Below, in pieces: positions 4,594 to 23,902 of a DNA stretch of 26,727 bases. A program made the position numbers and the translations under genes. The notes beneath the pieces were generated by a model that was not told the DNA's origin, did no database searches, and was given only the letters and a program-made list of their open reading frames with translations. How positions within the stretch are numbered: position 1 is the stretch's first letter; every line of letters starts with the position of its first letter. The stretch is from a virus: the IMG/VR virus record IMGVR_UViG_3300008111_000177, positions 1 through 26,727 of that record; one strand, given 5' to 3'.

Positions 4594-7334
4594 TGACAGT
4601 GCAACCAGAATTTGATGGGGCGTCGCCAAGCTTTGCAGCATTTACTCCAGAATTAACTCCAACTGTATCTACTTTTGGAAATACTCCAAATGATCCATCT
4701 AGTGCTGCCATTCGCAAACTAGATGCAAATGTTGCAAATGTTAGTCCTGCTCTTTATGCTGCGGGTGCACGTACCGCTTTAACTCGTGAAGAAAAAAACT
4801 TAATTGAAAACTGGTCAGGTATTAAAACTACGCATGAAAAACTTATGCGTATGCGTGGCGGTCAAGCAGGAGAAGAATTTAAAAAGCTTGAACCTGGTAT
4901 GCAAGAAGTATTAAAGACTTACTACAACATTGATTATCAAAATAAACCAGACAACGGCGCAATTATTCAGAATGAAACATTTAGAAAAGTTTTAGGTCTT
5001 GATGACGGTCTATCTGTTGGTGACGTAATTAAAAGTCCGTTTCGTTTTCTCATGGCAGCTGGAGCACAATACGGTAAAGCAATAAACACTGCTGGCAACA
5101 TGCTTCAAAATTCAATTATTAATCGTGAATCATTTTGGACTCGTGCTAATTTTGATAAATCTTTTGAGGGCAAGTATCTTTACGATGAATCAATATCAGA
5201 TGAATTAGTTAATAAGTATGGCGGAGCTGAAAGCTTTGTAGCTATGCATGTTCTTGCTGGTGATACTCCAGGAGAAATTATTGATGCTTGGGGTCCTAAC
5301 GACCCTGCTATTTTAACTGCCATTAATTCTATGTTTAATGAACCAGAAGCTTTTGGCATTATGGTTGGTGAATTTTCTAGAGCACAACTATCTCCAGGTC
5401 GTAACATTGGCAGGTTTGTAGCTAATTCTTTAGGCGTTAGCGTTGAAGATAATAAAAAATTATTTTCATTAACTAGTGGCACTATTGATTTAGCTTATCA
5501 AATCTTTGCAGATCCATTAACTTATTTAACACTTGGTGGTTCTGTTGCTGCTAAAGCAGCGGGCAAAGCTGAAAAACTTGCTGCTGCAATTAAAACTGGT
5601 GACGATGTTCCCACCTATCTTGCTCGTGCTGATGTTGCTCCAGTATTTGATAGTTACACTCGTGGAATTGGTGACTATACAAAAGCTAAAGAACTTGATG
5701 ATCCAGCTGCAATGAATGAAGCTGTTGCTAGAATTCAAAAAGCATCTCCTGCTCATGGCACAATTGAAGAGATTGAATTCTGGTCAGGTTTAGGCGTAAC
5801 AGATCTTCCAAGTCTTGTTCGTCAGTTTGATAATGATGAAACTGGAGCATTTACTAAATTTGTTCGTGGTCGCACAGTAGATAAAACTTATGCAATTAAT
5901 GGAGCAGATCACGTAAAAAGTTCTCGCGAATTTGTAATGAAAGCAAAAGAACGTACTCGTGAATTTTTTACTGGTAAAGTAGATTACGATGAAACTCCAA
6001 TTCAATATGCAGATCTTCGTCCACAACTTTTAAGTGACAATGTAAGTGGCGTTGAAATTAAAGCGCAAAAACAACAAAACTTTTTACAAAAATTTATTCA
6101 ACAACAAGTTCAGTTGCATCCTGGTCGTTCTATTGTTTACCATGACGATGCAAACGTAGCTAAGACTGCTGACATATTTCGCAAGCAAGCATTCCTTGCA
6201 TTTGGTCGTCGCGATCTAGCTGAAGTTGCTACTATGGATTTCTTAAGATCTAGTCAAGCTGATCGATTTGCAATGCATCGCTCCATCTTTGAATTAAATA
6301 TGCGTCGTGCTGGTATTCATGGCATGGATGGTGGAGAAGAGTTTATTAAAAAATCTCTTGATGCTCACTTTGGTAATAAAACAACTTGGGAAGTATTAGA
6401 TAATGCACCAATGCCTGAAAGATTTGGTTTGGCTCAGGGCAGATCAATCGCTTCAACTGGTCCTTTACATGCTAGTCAATTTCAGAATTACGTAACCGCA
6501 CCAGACTGGAGAGCAATTTCTGAATTTGCTGCTAGTAGATCACTTAATAAAGGTGACAAAAAATTAATTGAATATATTCCACAAGTAATTGGTGGAGCAT
6601 ATAACCACAGAGTTACTGGTATTGCTACAGACCTATGGACAACTCTTACACTTGTTCCTCAGTTGGGTATTCGTACTGCAATTGACGAAGGCTTTATGTT
6701 CTTGATGTACGCTAACGGTGCGTTAATTAAAAACTATGGTGCTGCTCGTAAGTTTAATAAAATCCAAGCTTCAGCAACTGGCGATTTATCTGCTGTTGGT
6801 CCAGTTAAGAATGGTATTCAAGTTGCTATAGGTAAAGTACTTGGTCGTGAATTTGGTGCAGTAAGAGATATCAGCCAAGAAACACGTATTGATATACGTA
6901 AGGGAATTGAAAAGGCTAATAAGAAAAAGTCTCAATGGGAAATTGATGAACTTGTTCGTGCTGAATTAGTTGATCGTGCTATTGCTCGCCGTGCTGGAAG
7001 ACTAGATCCAGTTAAGCAACAGTGGATGCGCGAACTTATTATTGATAATCCAAATGTTTTGCGTGATGTATCTAGCCGTAACGTAAATGCTGCTGCACTT
7101 GGTCGTTCAGATAGCATGGTTACACCAGTACTTTTAGATAGAGGTCAAGTAGACATCTCAATGGATGCTCTTGGTGTTGCACCTAAGGGTTCTATACGTG
7201 CAGTTGATACTAGAGACATGTCAGACTCTGATATTGACATCACTATGTTTGATAATATGACTCGTATCTTTAATGATCGTGGCTTTACGTTTAAAACTAA
7301 AAATGGTGAAGATCGCACATTTAGTTTTGGTTAA
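4593..7334 (+). CDS. Large putative internal virion (ejection) protein, part 1
   Basis: A 913 aa protein starting with GTG that overlaps the previous stop. It has no signal peptide. The sequence is mostly helical, with segments such as SPFRFLMAAGAQYGKAINTA (about 148-167), AYQIFADPLTYLTLGGSV (about 302-319) and an Ala/Lys-rich stretch after it. Similar layouts, with a helical N-terminal part followed by an ADPLTY-type stretch, are what I recall of large uncharacterised phage virion proteins. Size, position between portal and scaffold and lack of a known enzyme motif suggest a capsid-internal or ejected protein. Its stop codon overlaps the next start as TAATG, so the two may act as one unit. 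No lysozyme or protease active site was seen. Confidence 0.8.
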   Translation: MTVQPEFDGASPSFAAFTPELTPTVSTFGNTPNDPSSAAIRKLDANVANVSPALYAAGARTALTREEKNLIENWSGIKTTHEKLMRMRGGQAGEEFKKLEPGMQEVLKTYYNIDYQNKPDNGAIIQNETFRKVLGLDDGLSVGDVIKSPFRFLMAAGAQYGKAINTAGNMLQNSIINRESFWTRANFDKSFEGKYLYDESISDELVNKYGGAESFVAMHVLAGDTPGEIIDAWGPNDPAILTAINSMFNEPEAFGIMVGEFSRAQLSPGRNIGRFVANSLGVSVEDNKKLFSLTSGTIDLAYQIFADPLTYLTLGGSVAAKAAGKAEKLAAAIKTGDDVPTYLARADVAPVFDSYTRGIGDYTKAKELDDPAAMNEAVARIQKASPAHGTIEEIEFWSGLGVTDLPSLVRQFDNDETGAFTKFVRGRTVDKTYAINGADHVKSSREFVMKAKERTREFFTGKVDYDETPIQYADLRPQLLSDNVSGVEIKAQKQQNFLQKFIQQQVQLHPGRSIVYHDDANVAKTADIFRKQAFLAFGRRDLAEVATMDFLRSSQADRFAMHRSIFELNMRRAGIHGMDGGEEFIKKSLDAHFGNKTTWEVLDNAPMPERFGLAQGRSIASTGPLHASQFQNYVTAPDWRAISEFAASRSLNKGDKKLIEYIPQVIGGAYNHRVTGIATDLWTTLTLVPQLGIRTAIDEGFMFLMYANGALIKNYGAARKFNKIQASATGDLSAVGPVKNGIQVAIGKVLGREFGAVRDISQETRIDIRKGIEKANKKKSQWEIDELVRAELVDRAIARRAGRLDPVKQQWMRELIIDNPNVLRDVSSRNVNAAALGRSDSMVTPVLLDRGQVDISMDALGVAPKGSIRAVDTRDMSDSDIDITMFDNMTRIFNDRGFTFKTKNGEDRTFSFG

Positions 7335-13300: not shown

Positions 13301-14311
13301 ATGGCTGTAACAGGCTTATCGGGTGGTAGTGCAGCAACTAACGGTGGTCTCGGTGGTGGAGCTTACTCTTCCGCTAACAACGTTGGTACATTCACACCAT
13401 CTAACGGTGCTGGTCTGGTTCAGAAGGCGTATGATCGCCTTGTTGAATTTGAACTACGCTCAACCCCATTGCTACGTTCAGTAGCAGACAAGAAGCCAGC
13501 ACGTCAGGCAATGCCAGGTTCATCTGTAGCTCTACAGATCTACAACGACATGGCAGTTGCTAAGAGCGTTCTGTCTGAAGAAGTAGATCCAACTGCAGTT
13601 GCTCTTGCAACTCCAGACATCGTAACTATTACTCTAAACGAGTATGGTAACGCTACTTTGGTTAGCAAGAAGCTTGGTCTTCTATCTCTTGCAGATGTAG
13701 ACCCTGCTGTTGCTAACATCATTGCATTCAACATGGCTGATTCTATTGACGAACTAGCACAGGATGCATTGCTAACAGGTACTAACGTACTTTACGCAAC
13801 TGGTGGAACAACCACTGCAACAACAACTTCAGGTATCACTTCAGATGACACACTATCTGCTGCCGATATCCGTTACGCTGTTGCAAAGCTTCGTTCCAAC
13901 AAGGCTAATGGTCGTAAGGGATCACTATACTGGTGTGGTATTCACCCAGAAGTATCTCACGATCTTCGTGCCGAAACTGGTGCTGCATCGTGGCGTAACC
14001 CGCACGAGTACCAGAGCAATGATGCAATCTGGGCTGGCGAAATTGGTCAGTTTGAAGGTGCTTACTTCATTGAATCTCCACGTCTACGTAAGGGTTCAGA
14101 CGGTGCTTCAAGCATTTCTGTATACCGTACGTTCCTATGTGGACAGCAAGCACTTGCTGAAGCTGTTGCCGAAGAACCACACGTGGTTATCGGTCCAGTC
14201 GTAGATCGTTTGATGCGTCAGCGTCCAATCGGTTGGTACGGTGTTCTAGGACACGCTATCTACCGTAATGAAGCGTTGTACCGTATCGAGTCTGCTTCTA
14301 GCATCGCCTAG
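13301..14311 (+). CDS. Major capsid protein, N4-gp56-like family
   Basis: The 336 aa product forms the icosahedral shell (HK97 fold expected). The N-terminus is Gly/Ser/Ala-rich. The core shows a pattern I associate with N4-gp56-family capsids: a basic stretch, then VTITLNEYGNATLVSKKLGL, then DPAVANIIAFNMADSIDELA and TGTNVLYA (residues 159-166). Later KLRSNKANGRKGSLYWCGIH and the C-terminal GWYGVLGHAIYRNEALYRI also fit. It has an excellent Shine-Dalgarno (AAGGA at 13290-13294, six bases before ATG) and more C-ending codons than its neighbours, as expected for a highly expressed gene. It is bracketed by the scaffold and by a strong hairpin. Confidence 0.92.
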   Translation: MAVTGLSGGSAATNGGLGGGAYSSANNVGTFTPSNGAGLVQKAYDRLVEFELRSTPLLRSVADKKPARQAMPGSSVALQIYNDMAVAKSVLSEEVDPTAVALATPDIVTITLNEYGNATLVSKKLGLLSLADVDPAVANIIAFNMADSIDELAQDALLTGTNVLYATGGTTTATTTSGITSDDTLSAADIRYAVAKLRSNKANGRKGSLYWCGIHPEVSHDLRAETGAASWRNPHEYQSNDAIWAGEIGQFEGAYFIESPRLRKGSDGASSISVYRTFLCGQQALAEAVAEEPHVVIGPVVDRLMRQRPIGWYGVLGHAIYRNEALYRIESASSIA

Positions 14312-14319
14312 TTTAGTAA

Positions 14320-14358
14320 CTAGCTTCACTCCCACCCACAAGGTGGGGGTGTTGCTAG
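14320..14358 (+). terminator. Strong hairpin after the capsid gene
   Basis: Nine bases after the capsid stop, CACTCCCACC (27-36 of 143xx) pairs with GGTGGGGGTG (14342-14351), ten pairs including one G-U, around CACAA. Below two mismatches, CTAGC (14320-14324) pairs with GCTAG (14354-14358). There is no T-run, so full termination is doubtful. It more likely protects the capsid mRNA 3' end, gives partial termination, or is an RNase processing site that lets capsid expression exceed that of downstream tail genes. Confidence 0.65.
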
Positions 14359-14375
14359 GTACTGAAAGGACTTAA

Positions 14376-14627
14376 ATGCCATACCTATTTGTACCACCAG
14401 TAGAGAACGAAGGACCTATGGGTGGTAACCACCTATTTGCTCGCTACACACGTAAACAAGGTGTAACTGTTTACCGTCTTGATGGTGAGTTCTATGAAGA
14501 TAGATTTCCAGCACAAGATGATTTAGATCTTGCTGATCTAGTTTATCTTGGTGGACATGAGTACGTTGTTAATGCTACTGAAAAAGCAGCTCTTGAATCA
14601 GTGGGCTACACGGTGATTACAACATGA
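14376..14627 (+). CDS. Small protein of unknown function after the capsid gene
   Basis: An 83 aa protein with a good Shine-Dalgarno (AAAGGA at 14365-14370, five bases before ATG). It has an N-terminal PYLFVPPVENEGPMGGNHLF, a Tyr/Arg-rich middle and an acidic stretch DDLDLADLVYLGGHEYVV. No transmembrane segment is visible. The family is not recognised. By position it could be a head completion, decoration or connector protein. It overlaps the next gene by ATGA. Confidence 0.75.
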   Translation: MPYLFVPPVENEGPMGGNHLFARYTRKQGVTVYRLDGEFYEDRFPAQDDLDLADLVYLGGHEYVVNATEKAALESVGYTVITT

Positions 14628-14850
14628 CATTGTTAGAATCATTGACTGTTGTATCGTTATCACTGGGTATTATTGCATTAATAGGCAAATGGATTATTGT
14701 AACTCCATTAAAATCTTACATTAAAGAACTGACACATCCTATCCAGCCTACGGCTAATGGTGGTAGAAGTCTTCCAGACATTGCTCGTACAGTAGACAGA
14801 ATTGAAAAGCGTTTAGATGAACACATTACATTACATCTTAAGGATGAACT

Positions 14851-14854
<4 letters not shown>
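14624..14854 (+). CDS. Small single-pass membrane protein
   Basis: A 76 aa protein with one hydrophobic segment at about residues 5-27 (LTVVSLSLGIIALIGKWIIV), then a cytosol-type polar part containing HPIQPTANGG and a charged helix (TVDRIEKRLDEHITLHL). The layout is N-terminal membrane anchor plus coiled coil. A holin-like or XhlA-like role, or a virion membrane-contact protein, is possible, but there is no endolysin gene nearby to back it. It overlaps the genes on both sides by ATGA. Confidence 0.75.
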
Positions 14855-15941
<1,087 letters not shown>

Positions 15942-15942
15942 C

Positions 15943-16272
15943 ATGGCATTTACATATAAGGTGCTTGCACAAAGCGCACCTTCCGCTACAACCTCTACAG
16001 ATATCTACACCGTAGGTGCTGGTAAGCAAGCAGTAGTTTCAACTATTACTGTGGCTAATCGTGGTGCTAGTGCTAGTTCTTACCGAATTTCTGTTCGTCC
16101 TGCAGGTGCTACTTTAGCAAACCAGCACTACTTAGCATATGACATTGCTATTGCCGCTAATGATACAACTGTTTTAACTATTGGATTAACTTTAGAAGCA
16201 ACAGATGTAGTTACTGTTTACGCATTAAGTGCTAACCTATCATTTGGAATTTATGGTACGGAGATTGCCTAA
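15943..16272 (+). CDS. Small beta-sandwich virion protein, probable fibre or decoration protein
   Basis: A 109 aa protein made of alternating polar and hydrophobic beta strands (AFTYKVLAQSAPSATTSTDI; TVLTIGLTLEATDVVTVYAL). It contains no catalytic residue pattern and no cysteine. Such small beta proteins in fibre clusters are usually decoration or attachment modules. It starts one base after the collagen-like gene and ends in a TAATG overlap with the Gly-rich protein, so it is probably part of the same fibre complex. Confidence 0.8.
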   Translation: MAFTYKVLAQSAPSATTSTDIYTVGAGKQAVVSTITVANRGASASSYRISVRPAGATLANQHYLAYDIAIAANDTTVLTIGLTLEATDVVTVYALSANLSFGIYGTEIA

Positions 16273-16967
16273 TGGCTGTACGTCAAGTAAGTAAATCAAC
16301 CATTGCTCAGGGAACTCCAAAAGGAAGTAAAGCTTGGGATCAACTTTCATCTACTGCTTTTGCTGCTGAACTTTTAATAGTTGGAGGCGGTGGCGGTGGT
16401 AGTGGTGACGGCTGTTACTCTGGCGGTGGCGGTAGTGGTCAAACTAGAGATTTAAGTATTACCATTGGTTTAGCTCAAACATATCCAATTACTATAGGTG
16501 CTGGTGCTTACCAGGCTACGGGTGGTTCTAGTACCGCATTTGGATACACTGCAGTTGGTGGAAATAGTTCATCAGGTATTACTGGTGGAACTTCTGGAAA
16601 TGGTCACGGCGGTGGAGGTGGTGCTTTTTGTACCGCTTGTTGTGCTGCAGGAGGCGGCGGCGGTGGTGCCACTGGAGGTGGCAGTAGTGCTGCTGGATGT
16701 TCTACCCACGGAAATGGTGGAGGTGGTTTTAACTGGAAATCACTTGGAACCGTTTATGCCTCTGGTGGACGTGGAATGAATAACTGTACTGGTGCTTCTA
16801 ATGGTGCTGCTAATACTGGTAATGGTGCTGGTGGTAATGCTACTGGTGGTTCTGGTATTGTTATAGTTCGTTATACTGGTGCACAAAAAGGAACTGGTGG
16901 TACAATCACTTCATCAGGTGGATATACTTATCATACATTTACGGCTAACGGAAATTTGGTAACTTAA
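16272..16967 (+). CDS. Glycine-rich tail tip or receptor-binding protein
   Basis: A 231 aa protein. Residues 1-35 are an ordinary beta-type head. The middle is a Gly-rich array (LIVGGGGGGSGDG; GGGGGGATGGGSSAAGCSTH). The end, SGIVIVRYTGAQKGTGGTIT followed by SSGGYTYHTFTANGNLVT, is the ending I associate with Gly-rich phage tail-tip domains. A Cys cluster (FCTACC) lies inside the Gly-rich part. It probably forms the distal tip that touches the host surface. The gene is translationally coupled to the one before it. Confidence 0.85.
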   Translation: MAVRQVSKSTIAQGTPKGSKAWDQLSSTAFAAELLIVGGGGGGSGDGCYSGGGGSGQTRDLSITIGLAQTYPITIGAGAYQATGGSSTAFGYTAVGGNSSSGITGGTSGNGHGGGGGAFCTACCAAGGGGGGATGGGSSAAGCSTHGNGGGGFNWKSLGTVYASGGRGMNNCTGASNGAANTGNGAGGNATGGSGIVIVRYTGAQKGTGGTITSSGGYTYHTFTANGNLVT

Positions 16968-16969
16968 TT

Positions 16970-17473
16970 ATGGCTCATTATGCACTACTTGATGAAAACA
17001 ATATTGTTGTACAGGTATTTGTTGGAGAAGATGAAAACAATCTTATAGACGGCAAAAGTCCTGAAGAGTATTACTCTGAAGAATATGGCAAGCGTTGCTT
17101 GCGTACTTCTTTTAATGGGAATATACGTGGAAATTACGCTAATGCAGGAATGAAATACGACCAAGAGTTGGATATGTTTCTTACTGATAAGCCCTATGCA
17201 TCTTGGACATTAAATTTAGAAACTGGAAAATGGGAAGCTCCATTACCAGAACCAGTAGAATGGCAACCACTTCCATACTTTTGGAATGAAGATACTTTTA
17301 AGTGGGAAATAGAACCATATTACAAGAACTCAATAACCATTGAAAGCCGTGTACTTATTTGTCTTGAGTGTCCATTCTGGGTTCCAGAAACTACAACTTG
17401 TTCTAAATGTAGTTGTCCAGGTAAAACTTTACACACTAATCCTCACGCTACTTGTCCAGATCAAAGATGGTAA
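16970..17473 (+). CDS. Fibre-associated protein with C-terminal Cys-rich domain
   Basis: A 167 aa protein in two parts. Residues 1-125 (AHYALLDENNIVVQVFVGED; RGNYANAGMKYDQELDMF; PYASWTLNLETGKWEAP) fit a widespread phage tail-fibre-linked family in which a Trp/Tyr-rich module repeats. The last 45 residues hold six cysteines spaced C-x2-C-x9-C-x2-C-x-C-x12-C, a likely zinc-binding module. The next gene carries the same Cys pattern alone. The combination may be a fusion. Function is not proven; a virion adhesin or assembly factor is likely by context. Confidence 0.82.
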   Translation: MAHYALLDENNIVVQVFVGEDENNLIDGKSPEEYYSEEYGKRCLRTSFNGNIRGNYANAGMKYDQELDMFLTDKPYASWTLNLETGKWEAPLPEPVEWQPLPYFWNEDTFKWEIEPYYKNSITIESRVLICLECPFWVPETTTCSKCSCPGKTLHTNPHATCPDQRW

Positions 17474-17483
17474 GAAAATAAAA

Positions 17484-17675
17484 ATGACAAGTAAGCCATG
17501 GCATCTATTAAATAAAAATAAGTATCCAAGAAGTATAGATGAAATTGCTACTGATAGACTCTCTATTTGTTACAATTGTCCTTCTTTAATTGCTGGAATA
17601 TGTAAAGAGTGTGGATGTATTATGAATCAAAAAGTAAAGCTTGAATTAGCAACTTGTCCGATAGGAAAATGGTAA
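17484..17675 (+). CDS. Small Cys-rich putative zinc-ribbon protein
   Basis: A 63 aa protein. The C-terminal half has C-x2-C-x7-C-x2-C-x-C-x12-C ending ATCPIGKW, almost the same layout as the C-terminal domain of the preceding protein (ATCPDQRW). Its own start, ATG at 17484 in A-rich DNA, is chosen because the longer upstream reading only overlaps the previous gene. A structural zinc site is likely. The gene ends in TAATG with the next mini-gene. Confidence 0.75.
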   Translation: MTSKPWHLLNKNKYPRSIDEIATDRLSICYNCPSLIAGICKECGCIMNQKVKLELATCPIGKW

Positions 17676-17688
17676 TGGCTTGTAGAAC
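17674..17688 (+). repeat. 15-base direct repeat, copy 1
   Basis: AATGGCTTGTAGAAC is identical at 17674-17688 and 19512-19526. Both copies are the start codon region of a MACRTGCPTQD gene. Homology continues with third-position changes for about 20 more bases. The copies flank the two glycosyltransferase genes, so recombination between them would remove or introduce that pair. Confidence 0.75.
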
Positions 17689-17770
17689 AGGTTGCCCAAC
17701 ACAGGACTGTGAATCATACGCAGACTGTTGTAAGGGTGTAGCTATTAATAAATCCTCACTACGTCCATAG
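17675..17770 (+). CDS. Very small Cys-rich protein, shortened copy of the MACRTGCPTQD gene
   Basis: A 31 aa reading frame, ATG to TAG, starting on the last base of the previous stop. It begins MACRTGCPTQD, identical to the first 11 residues of the 88 aa protein at 19513-19779, then diverges (CESYADCCKGVAINKSS). It holds five cysteines. It may be a working mini-protein or a remnant left by a duplication or insertion that placed two glycosyltransferase genes between the copies. Its coding status rests on the shared N-terminus and the overlap. Confidence 0.55.
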   Translation: MACRTGCPTQDCESYADCCKGVAINKSSLRP

Positions 17771-17787
17771 TGTGCTAGGATAATAGC

Positions 17788-18459
17788 ATGGTTAATACTA
17801 ATCTTGTTATTATTGGCTCTCGGTCAAGACCAGCCAATGCGGTACGTGCATTTGATGCACTTAAAAAAGTCAGCAAAATATCTGACTTTGCTCTGATTAT
17901 CAACGAAGACCAGAAGGACTTATACCCTGAGATAGATGGTGTAACTACTCACGTAGTTGATAGTCACCATGGTGTCAATGGTAAGTTCAACACTATTGTA
18001 CCACAGTACCTAGACAAGTATGAAACTATTACTGGTATAGATGATGACTGTCTGGTACAAACAGATGGTTGGGATAAAATCTTATACGAACCAATCAAGC
18101 GTATTGGTTATGGATTATCATACGGCAATGATGGTATCCAAGGACAGTTACTTCCTACCAAGATAATGATATCTACTAACATTACTAAGATACTAGGGTT
18201 CTGGTGCCCACCTACTTTATTCCACTCTTATGCAGATGATTTCTGGAAGTTAATGGGTGAGTCAATAAATTCACTGCATTACTTTAGAGATGTAAACATG
18301 GAACATCTACATTGGATGAATGGTAAAGCACCAAAGGATGAAACATACGAAAGCAACACTGCTGCTATTACACAAAAAGATAAGCACGCATTTGGTGAGT
18401 ACATACGAGATAGCTATTACCAAGATCTAGAAAGATTAGAAAAGGCTTTAGGTACATGA
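17788..18459 (+). CDS. Glycosyltransferase-like protein, GT-A fold probable
   Basis: A 223 aa protein. It opens with a Rossmann-type strand (LVIIGSRSRPANAVRAFDAL), has a metal/nucleotide-binding acid cluster GIDDDCL (Asp85-87) and then the pattern LGFWCPPTLFHSYADDFWKL, similar to small phage glycosyltransferases. The reaction would be transfer of a sugar from an NDP-sugar to a protein or glycan. The start has TAGGA seven bases ahead. It overlaps the next glycosyltransferase by ATGA, so the two are probably made together. Confidence 0.78.
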   Translation: MVNTNLVIIGSRSRPANAVRAFDALKKVSKISDFALIINEDQKDLYPEIDGVTTHVVDSHHGVNGKFNTIVPQYLDKYETITGIDDDCLVQTDGWDKILYEPIKRIGYGLSYGNDGIQGQLLPTKIMISTNITKILGFWCPPTLFHSYADDFWKLMGESINSLHYFRDVNMEHLHWMNGKAPKDETYESNTAAITQKDKHAFGEYIRDSYYQDLERLEKALGT

Positions 18460-19523
18460 AGATAGCGGTATACGCTATAGCTAAAAATGAAGCTAAACAT
18501 GTTAAACAATGGGCAGAAGTAACTAAAGGTGCTGATGTCCGAATTGTCCTAGATACAGGATCAGAAGATAACACTTATGACCTACTCCTACAGTACGGCA
18601 TAGAAGCCCACAGAGCCACGCTAAGCGACTTTAGGTTTGATGTGGCACGAAATATGGCACTAGATTTAGTACCATCTGACGTAGACATTTGTGTTTCCTT
18701 GGACATGGATGAAGTTCCTGATCCTAACTTCTTTGATCTACTGCGTAAAGGCTGGAAGCCTGACACTGGTAGAGCTTGGGTTATGTGGGACACAGGTAAC
18801 ATCTGGGCTAACAATAATCGTATTCATGCTAGACATAATTACAAGTGGCGGTATCCTTGCCACGAAGTTATAGAACCTATTGATAAAAGTTTAGATAAAC
18901 TTATTATAGTAGAGTCACTAGTATCTCATCAACCTGATAACGATAAACCTCGTAGTAACTATCTGTCACTACTAGAACTAGGACATCAAGAAGATCCTAC
19001 GGATCATCGAATGATTGTTTACTTAGCCCGTGAGTATTACTTTAAGGGTATGTGGCAAGAACTTATTGATGTAGGTAAGAAGCTAGAAGATATTCCAGGA
19101 TGGAATGTTGAACGTGCTCAGACTTGGCGTGGTATGGGTGAAGCCTACTGCAAGTTAGGTAATGATCGTGAAGGTCTTTACTGGTATCAACGCAATGTTG
19201 AAGAAGCACCATTAGATCTAGAAGCTTGGATGCCTATGGCATTCTATTACTATGAACGTAAGATGTGGAATCATTGCTATCAAGCAGCAATGAAAGTAAC
19301 TGAACTATCTAATGAATCTTACAATCACTATGTAGCTGATCAGTCAATGCCTTGGAGAATGTATGACTTGTTATCTATCGCATGTTGGAACTTAGGCAAG
19401 AAGGGTTCTGCTAAAAGATACGCACGCAAAGCAGTTGATCTAAATCCTACTGAAGAGCGTTTGATTAAGAACTATGAGTTTATTATGACTCAGACTGTAA
19501 AGGATTATAAGAATGGCTTGTAG
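18456..19523 (+). CDS. Glycosyltransferase family 2-like protein with TPR-type C-terminus
   Basis: A 355 aa protein. Residues 1-160 fit GT2: KIAVYAIAKNEAKHVKQWAE at the N-terminus, VLDTGSEDNTYD, then SLDMDEVPDP with a DxD at 83-85 and conserved-type His at 136 (CHEVIE) and 158 (SHQ). Residues 165-350 are helical tetratricopeptide-like repeats (for example TWRGMGEAYCKLGNDREGLY), probably a substrate or partner binding surface. It overlaps the preceding transferase by ATGA and the next gene by 11 bases. Targets could be host surface sugars or phage fibres; the position next to the collagen gene favours the latter. Confidence 0.88.
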   Translation: MKIAVYAIAKNEAKHVKQWAEVTKGADVRIVLDTGSEDNTYDLLLQYGIEAHRATLSDFRFDVARNMALDLVPSDVDICVSLDMDEVPDPNFFDLLRKGWKPDTGRAWVMWDTGNIWANNNRIHARHNYKWRYPCHEVIEPIDKSLDKLIIVESLVSHQPDNDKPRSNYLSLLELGHQEDPTDHRMIVYLAREYYFKGMWQELIDVGKKLEDIPGWNVERAQTWRGMGEAYCKLGNDREGLYWYQRNVEEAPLDLEAWMPMAFYYYERKMWNHCYQAAMKVTELSNESYNHYVADQSMPWRMYDLLSIACWNLGKKGSAKRYARKAVDLNPTEERLIKNYEFIMTQTVKDYKNGL

Positions 19524-19526
19524 AAC
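19512..19526 (+). repeat. 15-base direct repeat, copy 2
   Basis: This copy matches 17674-17688 exactly and lies at the start of the full-length 88 aa MACRTGCPTQD gene. The region between the two copies is the glycosyltransferase pair. Confidence 0.75.
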
Positions 19527-19779
19527 TGGATGTCCTACTCAAGACCATGACTCTTGGGGAGATTGTCTAAGAGCTTCTAACATACAGATGTCAACTGGTG
19601 ATGCTAACGGTAATCTAGTTAACAATGGTTGGACCAACAAGAAATGGAACAACGAACTTAAAGCTTACCGTGATGCTCGCGCTCAGGGTATACAACCAGA
19701 CGGAACTTCTACTGCACAGATTCAGAAAGCAGTAGATGTAAGTAACAAAACAGGACACGCATTTGGTTCTGCTTTATAA
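19513..19779 (+). CDS. Small phage protein with MACRTGCPTQD N-terminus
   Basis: An 88 aa protein with three cysteines in the N-terminal quarter (Cys3, Cys7, Cys18), followed by MSTGDANGNLVNNGWTN and a helical polar C-terminal half with NELKAYRDARAQGIQPDGTS. I recall this N-terminus and the AYR-ARAQGIQPDGT segment from small proteins of aquatic phages; no function is known to me. It overlaps the GT2 gene by 11 bases. A short Cys-rich relative lies at 17675-17770. Confidence 0.82.
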   Translation: MACRTGCPTQDHDSWGDCLRASNIQMSTGDANGNLVNNGWTNKKWNNELKAYRDARAQGIQPDGTSTAQIQKAVDVSNKTGHAFGSAL

Positions 19780-19790
19780 AGGAGATAACC

Positions 19791-20486: not shown

Positions 20487-23003
20487 ATGGCTAACCGAAT
20501 AACACCACCAACAGATGAGTATCGTGGTACTCACATTGTTGAGGAATCTAAAGGCGTAGCATGGGAAGTTGCTGACTTTTTATTTGGTGTTAAGTCAATA
20601 GAAAAAATTGCTAGTGGCAAAGGAACATGGGGCGATGCTCTTAATGTAGGTATTACTGCTGCTACATTTTTTATTCCTCCAGCAAAACTACTTACATTTA
20701 GTAGTAAAGCTTTAGGTAAAGTTATTGTTGATGCTGAAAAAGTTGCTGCTAATGAAGCCGTGTCAGAAGTAGCAAAGAAGGTAGCTTTACGTACCGCAGA
20801 AGAAGCTAAGTCTATTCGTGATACTGGATTGTCTTTAGCTGAGAATCCAACTAGACCTATGAGCGAAGCTCGCTTTAAAAAGATTACAGAGCCAGAACCA
20901 GAAACTGGTTTTGTTCCTGAGAAGCCACCACTAGATACATTTGAATCAGGTCCTGCTCCATTTAGACAATTTAGTGACGCAGATGAATTTGGTTGGACAA
21001 CAAAACAAGAATCTAAATACTACGGTACTGGATCCGATAAGACCGCAAAAGAAATTGCTGAAGATCGTTTTGAAGCTAGAACAAAACTAAAACAAGATGA
21101 TATAAAACCAGCCCCAAAACAAAAGTTAACACCAGAAGAACAAGCAGTTGTAGATAAAGTTAATGCTGAACTTCCAGAAACATTAACACTTCCAGAAGAA
21201 GCTGGCAAAGTTACTGTTATTAATCGCAAGACTGGTGAACTTGAATTTGAAAGTAGCATGACCGAAAGAACTGCACTTCCATCTGAACTTAGCATATCTC
21301 CACGTGTTGATCGTGCTGCGTGGTTACAAAATCAATTAGATAAATTAGGTCGTAAGAAAAATTCTTTGCCAAAAGAAAAGCGACCAGAGATACAATATAA
21401 AATAGATAAATACGATACTGAATTTAAATCTCTTCGCAAAAAATTAACAGAAGAAGAACGTGTACAAGCTGGAGAGTTGTACAATAAATTAAATAAACTT
21501 GATTTAAAAGAAGCATCTAAGACTGCACCTAAAACTACAAGGTTTAATTTAGATCAATCCAAAAAAGATTTAGAAAAACTTCGTGAACAATGGTCTAATA
21601 CTCCAGCTAAAGATTTTGAAAAACGTAACAAGCTTAAGCAAGAAGGTAAAACTTTAGCAGACAGAATTAAAAAAATGGAAAAAGATTCTGGATTACCTAC
21701 AACTGTAGATGATGTGTCTCCAGCTACATCAACCATATCTAGTGTTTCAGATGTTACTGTCCACTCAGGTGGTGCTAAAGGTGCTGATACTGCATGGGCT
21801 GAAGCTGCTGATTTAGTAGGCATAAAGACTATGGCTCATAGTTTTAAGGGACATGAATCTCTTGGTACTGCTTCTGGTTTTGTTGGTAAACGACCAGCAC
21901 TTGAAGTTAGAAATGATTTAACTGAAGAACAATTACGTCAACAAACAAAACTTGTTAATGATGCAGGTAGCGTTTTAGGTAAGCGAGCAGGTACATCATC
22001 TGCTGGTGGAAAACTTGTGCATAGAAATGCTTACCAAGTTAAAGACTCAGATGCAGTTCTTGCCGTTGCAAGTGGGTGGACAAAAATTGCTGATGAAACA
22101 CGAGTTACTGTAGGTGGCAGGGGTACTCCTTGGGCTGTTGAAATGGGAATTATTCTAGATAAACCAGTATTTGTTTTTGAACAAAACGCATCTAAGTGGT
22201 TTAAGTATAATCCAAAGTCTAAAGAATGGGACGAACTAGATGGTATTCCACCTAAATTTAAAAACTTTGCTGGCATAGGTACGGCAAGTGAGCTTAAAGA
22301 ATCTGGTCGAAGTGCTATTCAAGAATACATGCAACAGTTTGATCCATGGAATGTAAATAATATAAAACCACTTTCTTCTAAATCAACATCTAAAAGTACA
22401 TCTACTGTTAGATTAACTGAAGATAATGTTGATGAACTTTATGAATCTGAATTAGATGCATTAAATAATAATGACTGGACAAAACATAATCAATTACTTA
22501 AAGAAACTAGTTTTGAACAAGCACATGAATCAGATTTTTCTGAATTAAAAGATATTTATAATAGCGGTGATTTAAAACCAATTAATTCTTTTAGAGGAGA
22601 AAGTTCTTTTCTTTCTAATATGAGTGAATCTTCTTTTAAATTTGGCGATGAAACTTATCCAACTGTTGAGCATTTTTTCCAAGCAATGAAGACTACTAAT
22701 ACAACTGAACGTGCAAAAATTCTTGCTGCTAAGACAGCAGGAGAAGCAAAGAAAATTGGTAAAACAGTAACTCTTAGAAGTAATTGGAATAAAATACGTG
22801 AAGAAGTAATGGAAGCTGGACTTCGTGCAAAGTTCCAACAAAATCCAGAATTAAAACAGAAGTTAGTTGATACTGGTTTTGCAGATTTAATTGAAGGTAA
22901 CACTTGGGGAGATACTTTCTGGGGTCAAGTAAATGGCAAGGGACAAAACAAACTTGGAAAGCTTCTTATGAAAATTCGTGATGAACTAATGAAGGGTAAC
23001 TAA
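20487..23003 (+). CDS. SLOG-NADAR fusion protein with virion-type N-terminus
   Basis: An 838 aa protein in three parts. Residues 1-415 have no known enzyme domain: a hydrophobic or amphipathic stretch (about 45-70), then charged coiled-coil segments with Lys/Glu-rich blocks (about 270-410). Residues about 420-625 are a SLOG (YpsA/DprA-type nucleotide-binding) domain, with VHSGGAKGADTAW (425-437), RGTPWAVEMG (545-554) and FAGIGT (594-599). Residues about 699-836 are a NADAR (YbiA-like) domain with YPTVEHFFQAMK (724-735) and WGDTFWG (807-813). SLOG proteins bind NAD/ADP-ribose-type ligands, and NADAR enzymes cleave N-glycosidic bonds of ADP-ribosylated or ribosylated bases. The gene abuts the preceding stop and overlaps the next start by TAATG. 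Confidence 0.88.
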   Translation: MANRITPPTDEYRGTHIVEESKGVAWEVADFLFGVKSIEKIASGKGTWGDALNVGITAATFFIPPAKLLTFSSKALGKVIVDAEKVAANEAVSEVAKKVALRTAEEAKSIRDTGLSLAENPTRPMSEARFKKITEPEPETGFVPEKPPLDTFESGPAPFRQFSDADEFGWTTKQESKYYGTGSDKTAKEIAEDRFEARTKLKQDDIKPAPKQKLTPEEQAVVDKVNAELPETLTLPEEAGKVTVINRKTGELEFESSMTERTALPSELSISPRVDRAAWLQNQLDKLGRKKNSLPKEKRPEIQYKIDKYDTEFKSLRKKLTEEERVQAGELYNKLNKLDLKEASKTAPKTTRFNLDQSKKDLEKLREQWSNTPAKDFEKRNKLKQEGKTLADRIKKMEKDSGLPTTVDDVSPATSTISSVSDVTVHSGGAKGADTAWAEAADLVGIKTMAHSFKGHESLGTASGFVGKRPALEVRNDLTEEQLRQQTKLVNDAGSVLGKRAGTSSAGGKLVHRNAYQVKDSDAVLAVASGWTKIADETRVTVGGRGTPWAVEMGIILDKPVFVFEQNASKWFKYNPKSKEWDELDGIPPKFKNFAGIGTASELKESGRSAIQEYMQQFDPWNVNNIKPLSSKSTSKSTSTVRLTEDNVDELYESELDALNNNDWTKHNQLLKETSFEQAHESDFSELKDIYNSGDLKPINSFRGESSFLSNMSESSFKFGDETYPTVEHFFQAMKTTNTTERAKILAAKTAGEAKKIGKTVTLRSNWNKIREEVMEAGLRAKFQQNPELKQKLVDTGFADLIEGNTWGDTFWGQVNGKGQNKLGKLLMKIRDELMKGN

Positions 23004-23902
23004 TGGCTACATTTGGTCAAATGACTGATGAAGTATCACGCAAGTTAGCAGGTTTTACACTGCGTCAAGATCGTCAGACACACCTTACTGCTGCCGTTAA
23101 TACAACGGCTACTAGTATTACTGTTGCTTCTGCTACTAATATCTCAACTGGTATTATTCAAATTGATGACGAACTTATTTATGTAGATTCATATGACCGC
23201 AATACTGGTGTACTTAGTATTCCTCCTTATGGTCGTGGTTACAATGGTACAACTGCTTCTAGTCATGCAGTTGGTACACGTGTAATTGTATCTCCTACCT
23301 TCCCATCTGTTGATATTAAAGAAGCTATTAACGATACTATTCAAGCTGTGTTTCCAGATCTATATGCTACTGATACTCATACATTTTCTTACTCAACAGC
23401 TAGATCAACGTATGCTTTACCAGATGAAGTAGAAACTGTACTTGGAGTATCTTTTCAAACTACTGGTCCATCTAAAGAATGGCTTCCTGTTCGTGGTTGG
23501 CGTGTTGATCCTATGGCTAACACTAGTGCTTTTAATTCTAAAAATAGTATTAGCTTATACTCTGGCATAGAACCTGGAAGAACTGTACAAATATTTTACA
23601 CTTCTGCTCCAGTTGTAATGGATAATAATGATGATGATTTTGAAATTGTTACTGGCTTACCGCAATCTTGTAAGGATGTAATTGTTCTTGGTGCTTCAGC
23701 GCGGCTAGCTTCATTCGTAGATCCAGGTCGTTTGACCTTTGGTTCTGCTGAGTCTGATCAACAGTCACAAATTGCTGGTCGTTCTTATGGTGCTGGTACT
23801 AACACTGCTAAGTATCTACTTGCATTATATGACAAGAGACTTGCTGAGGAAAGTCGAAAGTTAACTGATCGTAACCCAACTAGAATCCACTTTACAAGAT
23901 AG
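23003..23902 (+). CDS. Putative head-tail adaptor or tail structural protein
   Basis: A 299 aa protein, mixed alpha-beta with a beta-rich insert (AAVNTTATSITVASATNI; IIQIDDELIYVDSYDRNTGV), then PTFPSVDIKEAINDTIQAVF and a C-terminal helical part (KYLLALYDKRLAEESRKLTD). This layout of an N-terminal helix, a beta insert and a terminal helix recalls gp4-like and tail-tubular adaptor proteins at the portal-tail junction. I cannot name the family with certainty. Its TAATG start is coupled to the SLOG-NADAR gene, and seven bases separate it from the fibre gene. Confidence 0.65.
   Translation: MATFGQMTDEVSRKLAGFTLRQDRQTHLTAAVNTTATSITVASATNISTGIIQIDDELIYVDSYDRNTGVLSIPPYGRGYNGTTASSHAVGTRVIVSPTFPSVDIKEAINDTIQAVFPDLYATDTHTFSYSTARSTYALPDEVETVLGVSFQTTGPSKEWLPVRGWRVDPMANTSAFNSKNSISLYSGIEPGRTVQIFYTSAPVVMDNNDDDFEIVTGLPQSCKDVIVLGASARLASFVDPGRLTFGSAESDQQSQIAGRSYGAGTNTAKYLLALYDKRLAEESRKLTDRNPTRIHFTR

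Follow-up and report, generated by a model that had tools for sequence, protein, structure and literature searches.

Mycobacteriophage virions are glycosylated by phage-encoded transferases, and the glycocin S-glycosyltransferases SunS and ThuS act on cysteine residues of small secreted peptides, the substrates known for them. A further system, to which the locus described here can be likened by layout, size and neighbourhood, is found in a bacterial spore coat: SgtA of Clostridioides difficile, a 358-aa enzyme with GT-A and TPR parts, is encoded next to bclA3 and has been shown in vitro to put O-GlcNAc on the threonine in the GPT repeats of BclA3, serine being accepted too (PMC7157674). Among phages, putative transferases have been described in Maravista, with a suggestion of capsid glycosylation (PMC11256854), and the transferases of Nanopelagicales phages have been proposed to protect the genome from nucleases or to block superinfection (PMC10202952). 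Many phages have collagen-like tail proteins, whose modification is largely unexplored; searches of the literature on phage collagen and glycosylation, mainly at the level of titles and abstracts, yielded no phage enzyme glycosylating collagen-like fibres.

The window, that is, the whole stretch of 26,727 bases analysed here, is a virus record in which terminase, portal, major head protein, collagen-like and other tail genes are co-oriented. No phage record matched in a search for near-identity over most of the window. Judged by the terminase, its closest annotated relatives are OX376640 and OX376641, at about 55-56% identity, followed by Streptomyces phages of about 46 kb. OX376640 bears the name of LanE43-AprE7, a cultivated phage infecting the freshwater actinobacterium 'Ca. 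Planktophila' (PMC10202952), and since it is the nearest terminase relative, the host of the window is likely a freshwater actinobacterium. The features needed below are the following.

14851..15189, plus strand: p112 (phrog_1084), conserved gene immediately 5' of the fibre gene
15189..15941, plus strand: collagen-like tail protein, 250 aa, mainly GPT/GST/GAT triplets; predicted acceptor of GTB
15943..17473, plus strand: three more genes, lying after the collagen-like gene and before the Cys-rich mini-genes, of 109 aa, 231 aa (glycine-rich) and 167 aa (Cys-rich in its C-terminal part)
17484..17675, plus strand: 63-aa CxxC protein (DUF6171 / phrog_13558), directly 5' of SHORT
17675..17770, plus strand: SHORT, a 31-aa Cys-rich micro-protein, MACRTGCPTQDCESYADCCKGVAINKSSLRP, of a conserved stand-alone family
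17788..18459, plus strand: GTA, 223 aa, optional glycosyltransferase of predicted GT-A fold (phrog_14945), a single-gene indel relative to contig L217
17796..18458, plus strand: the 663-nt GTA indel, missing in L217
18456..19523, plus strand: GTB, 355 aa, GT2 glycosyltransferase with C-terminal TPR (phrog_13126), predicted O-glycosyltransferase of the collagen-like protein
19513..19779, plus strand: LONG, 88 aa (phrog_10483), with a CxxxCxxxxH-like N-terminal module
23003..23902, plus strand: p299 (phrog_7578), used as neutral anchor and tree marker

The window also encodes, at 20487-23003, an 838-aa protein that joins a DprA/SLOG-like part (phrog_768) to a C-terminal NADAR domain (PF08719, E 5e-29), a possible counter-defence gene; its counterpart in contig L218 has just 386 aa.

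GTB shows the SgtA-like layout of a GT2/GT-A catalytic domain followed by a C-terminal TPR in about 355 aa, and its gene lies beside, and downstream of, a collagen-like gene with G-X-T triplets. Pfam recognizes the TPR and, weakly, GT2, and the motif D83-x-D85-E86 is invariant. The AlphaFold2 model is confident (mean pLDDT 89), and its six best PDB matches are SunS/ThuS structures (7MSN, 7MSP, 7MSK; E about 1e-14), which the predicted fold matches over nearly the full length of GTB; most lower-ranking matches span one half of the protein. A profile search also matched ThuS, together with a GmaR entry. Because SunS and ThuS modify cysteine, the sugar linkage made by GTB is not readable from the fold. 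Given the SgtA-BclA3 precedent and the triplets of the window's collagen-like protein (16 GPT, 14 GST, 7 GAT and 4 GVT), glycosylation of that protein by GTB is the simplest reading. We consider it likely that GTB O-glycosylates the collagen-like tail protein, with GTA as an optional second enzyme and SHORT and LONG as separate small proteins. GTB would then be a cytoplasmic GT2-TPR protein glycosyltransferase adding a sugar to threonines, perhaps also serines, in the G-X-T repeats of the phage's own fibre, and its TPR half would probably hold the acceptor.

The link between GTB and the collagen-like gene was assessed by neutral sampling, in which contigs were picked by the downstream gene p299 (three scans) to avoid a GTB-based choice, and a gene was called collagen-like if it held at least 20 G-X-Y triplets in long runs. 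Of these contigs, 84 extend 6 kb or more upstream, and GTB is carried by 57 of the 84 and absent from 27; a collagen-like gene is present in 52 of the former and only six of the latter (Fisher P 3.6e-10, kinship ignored). The p299 tree shows 11 changes of GTB and 8 of the collagen-like gene. After phylogenetic correction, 8 independent GTB changes are supported, and the collagen-like gene changes the same way in about 4.8 of them and the opposite way in none (P about 0.06). Collagen runs are also richer in G-X-T where GTB is present (mean share 0.75 vs 0.56 without it, P 1.5e-5), and in a transferase-free member of the window's clade (L218, the same contig as L027) the longest collagen-like run of the fibre gene has only 10 triplets. 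Four GTB contigs with enough flank (L279, L380, L385, L386) lack a detectable collagen-like gene in the stretch examined, so that GTB may have another acceptor there or the fibre gene may lie far away; a fifth exception, L216, ends before the fibre gene of what is apparently the window's own species. In L380 and L386 GTB comes after the major head protein gene.

A search with GTB recovered many phages in which the collagen-like gene, GTB and LONG follow one another without SHORT, their GTB being 40-47% identical to that of the window. We considered whether GTB is instead tied to LONG. Their adjacency is common and deep, yet LONG is universal in the census and sometimes lies several kb away past the fibre block, and this candidate was set aside; in five contigs (L238, L276, L278, L282, L286) the p112-collagen-GTB block is found beyond LONG. 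Since GTB tracks the collagen-like gene and is lost or moved with the p112-fibre block, it is best viewed as a member of the fibre module. Such a tail-fibre module would comprise p112, the collagen-like protein, other fibre genes, SHORT, GTA and GTB, transcribed towards LONG.

The fold matches to SunS and ThuS, and the position of GTB between two small Cys-rich proteins, one of which it overlaps, suggest another possibility: a glycocin-like system in which GTB glycosylates a cysteine or serine of SHORT or LONG. In the p299 census, however, the presence of SHORT is independent of GTB (P 1.0), and none of the 84 contigs lacks LONG, the 27 without GTB included. GTB thus differs from the glycocin enzymes in tracking a collagen-like tail gene and not the presence of a small peptide gene, and no transporter or peptidase is found among the annotated genes of the window. 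A glycocin-like role is improbable in our judgement, though LONG could serve as an acceptor where GTB is present.

The pairing of GTB with collagen-like genes extends to bacteria. Bacterial homologues of GTB, mostly from Firmicutes and 34-40% identical to it, have a collagen-like ORF in 53 of 80 loci, a non-random sample drawn from GTB searches; as a rule the ORF immediately precedes the homologue in the same orientation. Where at least 4 kb is available on both sides, 30 of 41 loci contain one, the 41 including a locus of the isolated phage DSL-LC01, where the GTB homologue comes three genes after a pair annotated as collagen. Five such bacterial genomes, of about 4-6 Mb, have between 2 and 29 collagen-domain matches apiece, so a random 13-kb stretch would, as a rough estimate only, seldom hold one.

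These associations in phages and bacteria bear on the roles put forward for transferases of related phages, namely that GTB and GTA act on DNA or the host surface, giving nuclease protection or a superinfection block (PMC10202952). The predicted fold of GTA is compatible with such a role, being a generic GT-A fold that matches many GT-A enzymes, polysaccharide transferases among them, and names no acceptor; a sequence search of solved structures with GTA gave no match. Neither role, however, predicts a link with a collagen-like tail gene, and the best fold matches of GTB are peptide glycosyltransferases. The cultivated phage E7, moreover, has no GTB or GTA of these families. We regard action on DNA or the host surface as unlikely overall, less firmly so for GTA. 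The sequence-only reading had proposed a change of host-surface or fibre glycosylation; the fibre is what the present inferences favour, and the host surface found no support. As to GTA under the fibre-glycosylation reading, we would guess that it may extend the glycan begun by GTB or else modify another site.

SHORT, GTA, GTB and LONG are consecutive, with tiny gaps or overlaps. As first read from the sequence, only the two glycosyltransferase genes lie between SHORT and LONG, joined by an ATGA overlap, and the 31-aa and 88-aa frames share the start MACRTGCPTQD exactly, along with 15 identical bases (17674-17688 = 19512-19526; an A followed by ATGGCTTGTAGAAC). GTB and LONG share 11 nt, the end of the one being the start of the other, and the TAG stop of GTB comes from the start of LONG, because ATGGCTTGTAGA of LONG read one frame over ends in NGL and a stop. 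The DNA of SHORT and LONG can be aligned over 66 nt at 71%. A degenerate ACRTGCP pattern has exactly two matches in the window, SHORT and LONG, against a shuffle mean of 0.03, so the repeat at the protein level is not due to chance. The first 14 nt, on the other hand, are common to both genes in only 10 of the 37 loci having both, so that the identical DNA reflects shared residues and codon choice and not a recombination footprint. We also rejected a DNA-level constraint or gene conversion holding the repeats alike: they differ within most genomes, and the codon sharing of SHORT at conserved residues in distant pairs (61%) is unremarkable beside p88 (59%), GTB (45%) and LONG (42%).

Viral contigs scanned for the coded motif contained at least 119 loci. 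The proteins that start with this motif split into two groups, one of 31-33 aa with INKSSLRP, IDRTSLQVK or a comparable sequence at the end, the other of 83-105 aa, with intermediates in three loci (L016, L019, L030). C3, C7 and C18 are constant; residue 12 is C in most SHORT proteins, while LONG and the intermediates have H there. This pattern (C3, C7, C/H12, C18) fits a metal site, and the common motif CxxxCxxxx[C/H]x5C is probably zinc-binding, to judge from its residues. SHORT is 98-99% identical in protein while its silent sites diverge; in phage pairs whose GTB is less than 60% identical, 98% protein identity is kept despite differences in 39% of the conserved-residue codons, and SHORT is therefore maintained as a protein. 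In PHROGs it is matched only weakly (E 0.019), and neither Pfam nor NCBIfam has a model for it; LONG matches PHROG 10483 and 24600, to which no function is assigned. SHORT occurs in many phages without LONG or transferases nearby, elsewhere preceding portal or other structural genes.

Several side observations concern these small proteins. As a 32-aa gene, SHORT is distributed over unrelated structural contexts, and in phages of another type it is directly 5' of a portal-like gene (L007, L009, L021, L028, L092, L107, L117). LONG proteins combine one C-terminal domain with interchangeable N-terminal modules, CRxGC...H in some phages and a longer HxxYxxGCFxCK (HxxYxxGCxxC) in others, for example in L011, L022, L093, L098, L099, L126 and L210. 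At 16970-17675 of the window, phrog_13558 is matched by two adjacent proteins with CxxC-rich ends, one of 167 aa (at its C-terminus) and the 63-aa DUF6171 protein; this is a further case of duplicated Cys-rich modules beside SHORT and LONG.

The shared starts had suggested that a two-gene transferase cassette recombined in next to a conserved mini-gene, of which a shortened copy stayed behind on the left side, and that the repeats permit removal of the cassette. The variation that such a proposal implies does exist, related phages having zero, one or two transferases between SHORT and LONG: none in six loci (L015, L027, L080, L102, L106, L237), GTB alone in at least 12 loci of the first scan (e.g. 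L039, L061), and both enzymes in the window, L048, L109 and L128. GTA and GTB also occur together 5' of a LONG with the other N-terminus (L098/L124 and L126) and, in L125, without SHORT. The transferase-free loci, however, still have the two MACRTGCPTQD genes next to each other, so that these empty forms are not products of recombination between the repeats, and no merged single-copy form was found; in L243, which comes nearest to it, the whole block of p112, fibre, SHORT and GTB is absent between the upstream conserved gene and LONG. Nor is the left gene a shortened remnant: SHORT as a truncated copy of LONG is ruled out by its own conserved C-terminus and by its existence as a stand-alone family.

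The two transferases do not form one unit either. L217 is 96.0% identical to positions 13939-17795 and 94.7% identical to 18459-19783 of the window and is without 17796-18458, so that GTA alone is absent, and most loci have only GTB. As SHORT and LONG are intact in L217, the GTA change did not use the repeats; its clean presence or absence between close relatives is that of a single-gene moron. GTB, for its part, is linked to the upstream collagen-like gene and neighbours LONG in phages without SHORT, where it is only about 40% identical to that of the window. Promoters and terminators, sought as cassette borders, show no excess over shuffles. For all that the common MACRTGCPTQD, the 15 bases and the variable content speak for it, insertion of a two-gene cassette appears highly improbable. 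SHORT and LONG are related but separate conserved small proteins, and are neither recombination sites nor cassette products. A further contig, L134, is more than 99.6% identical to the window with three short deletions, of which one of about 184 bp in GTA (5001-5485 of that contig) puts its two halves in different frames, reflecting either decay or an assembly error.

As in mycobacteriophages, phage enzymes are here proposed to decorate virion proteins; the abstract of PMC11256854 draws no link with collagen-like fibres. We see an even chance that a portable module for fibre glycosylation is widespread in freshwater actinophages: a GT2-TPR enzyme would co-evolve with a Thr-rich collagen-like tail protein and cover it in sugar, and the exchange of accessory transferases such as GTA would alter the glycan, so that the coat of the virion varies. 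GTB and the collagen-like protein constitute a putative, directly testable enzyme-substrate pair. Fibre glycosylation would assign to one or more of the transferase families of freshwater actinophages a role other than DNA protection or a superinfection block. If the proposal is true, these phages glycosylate their own collagen-like fibre with an enzyme of the kind used by bacterial spores, and both the stability of the fibre and its receptor binding would be affected.
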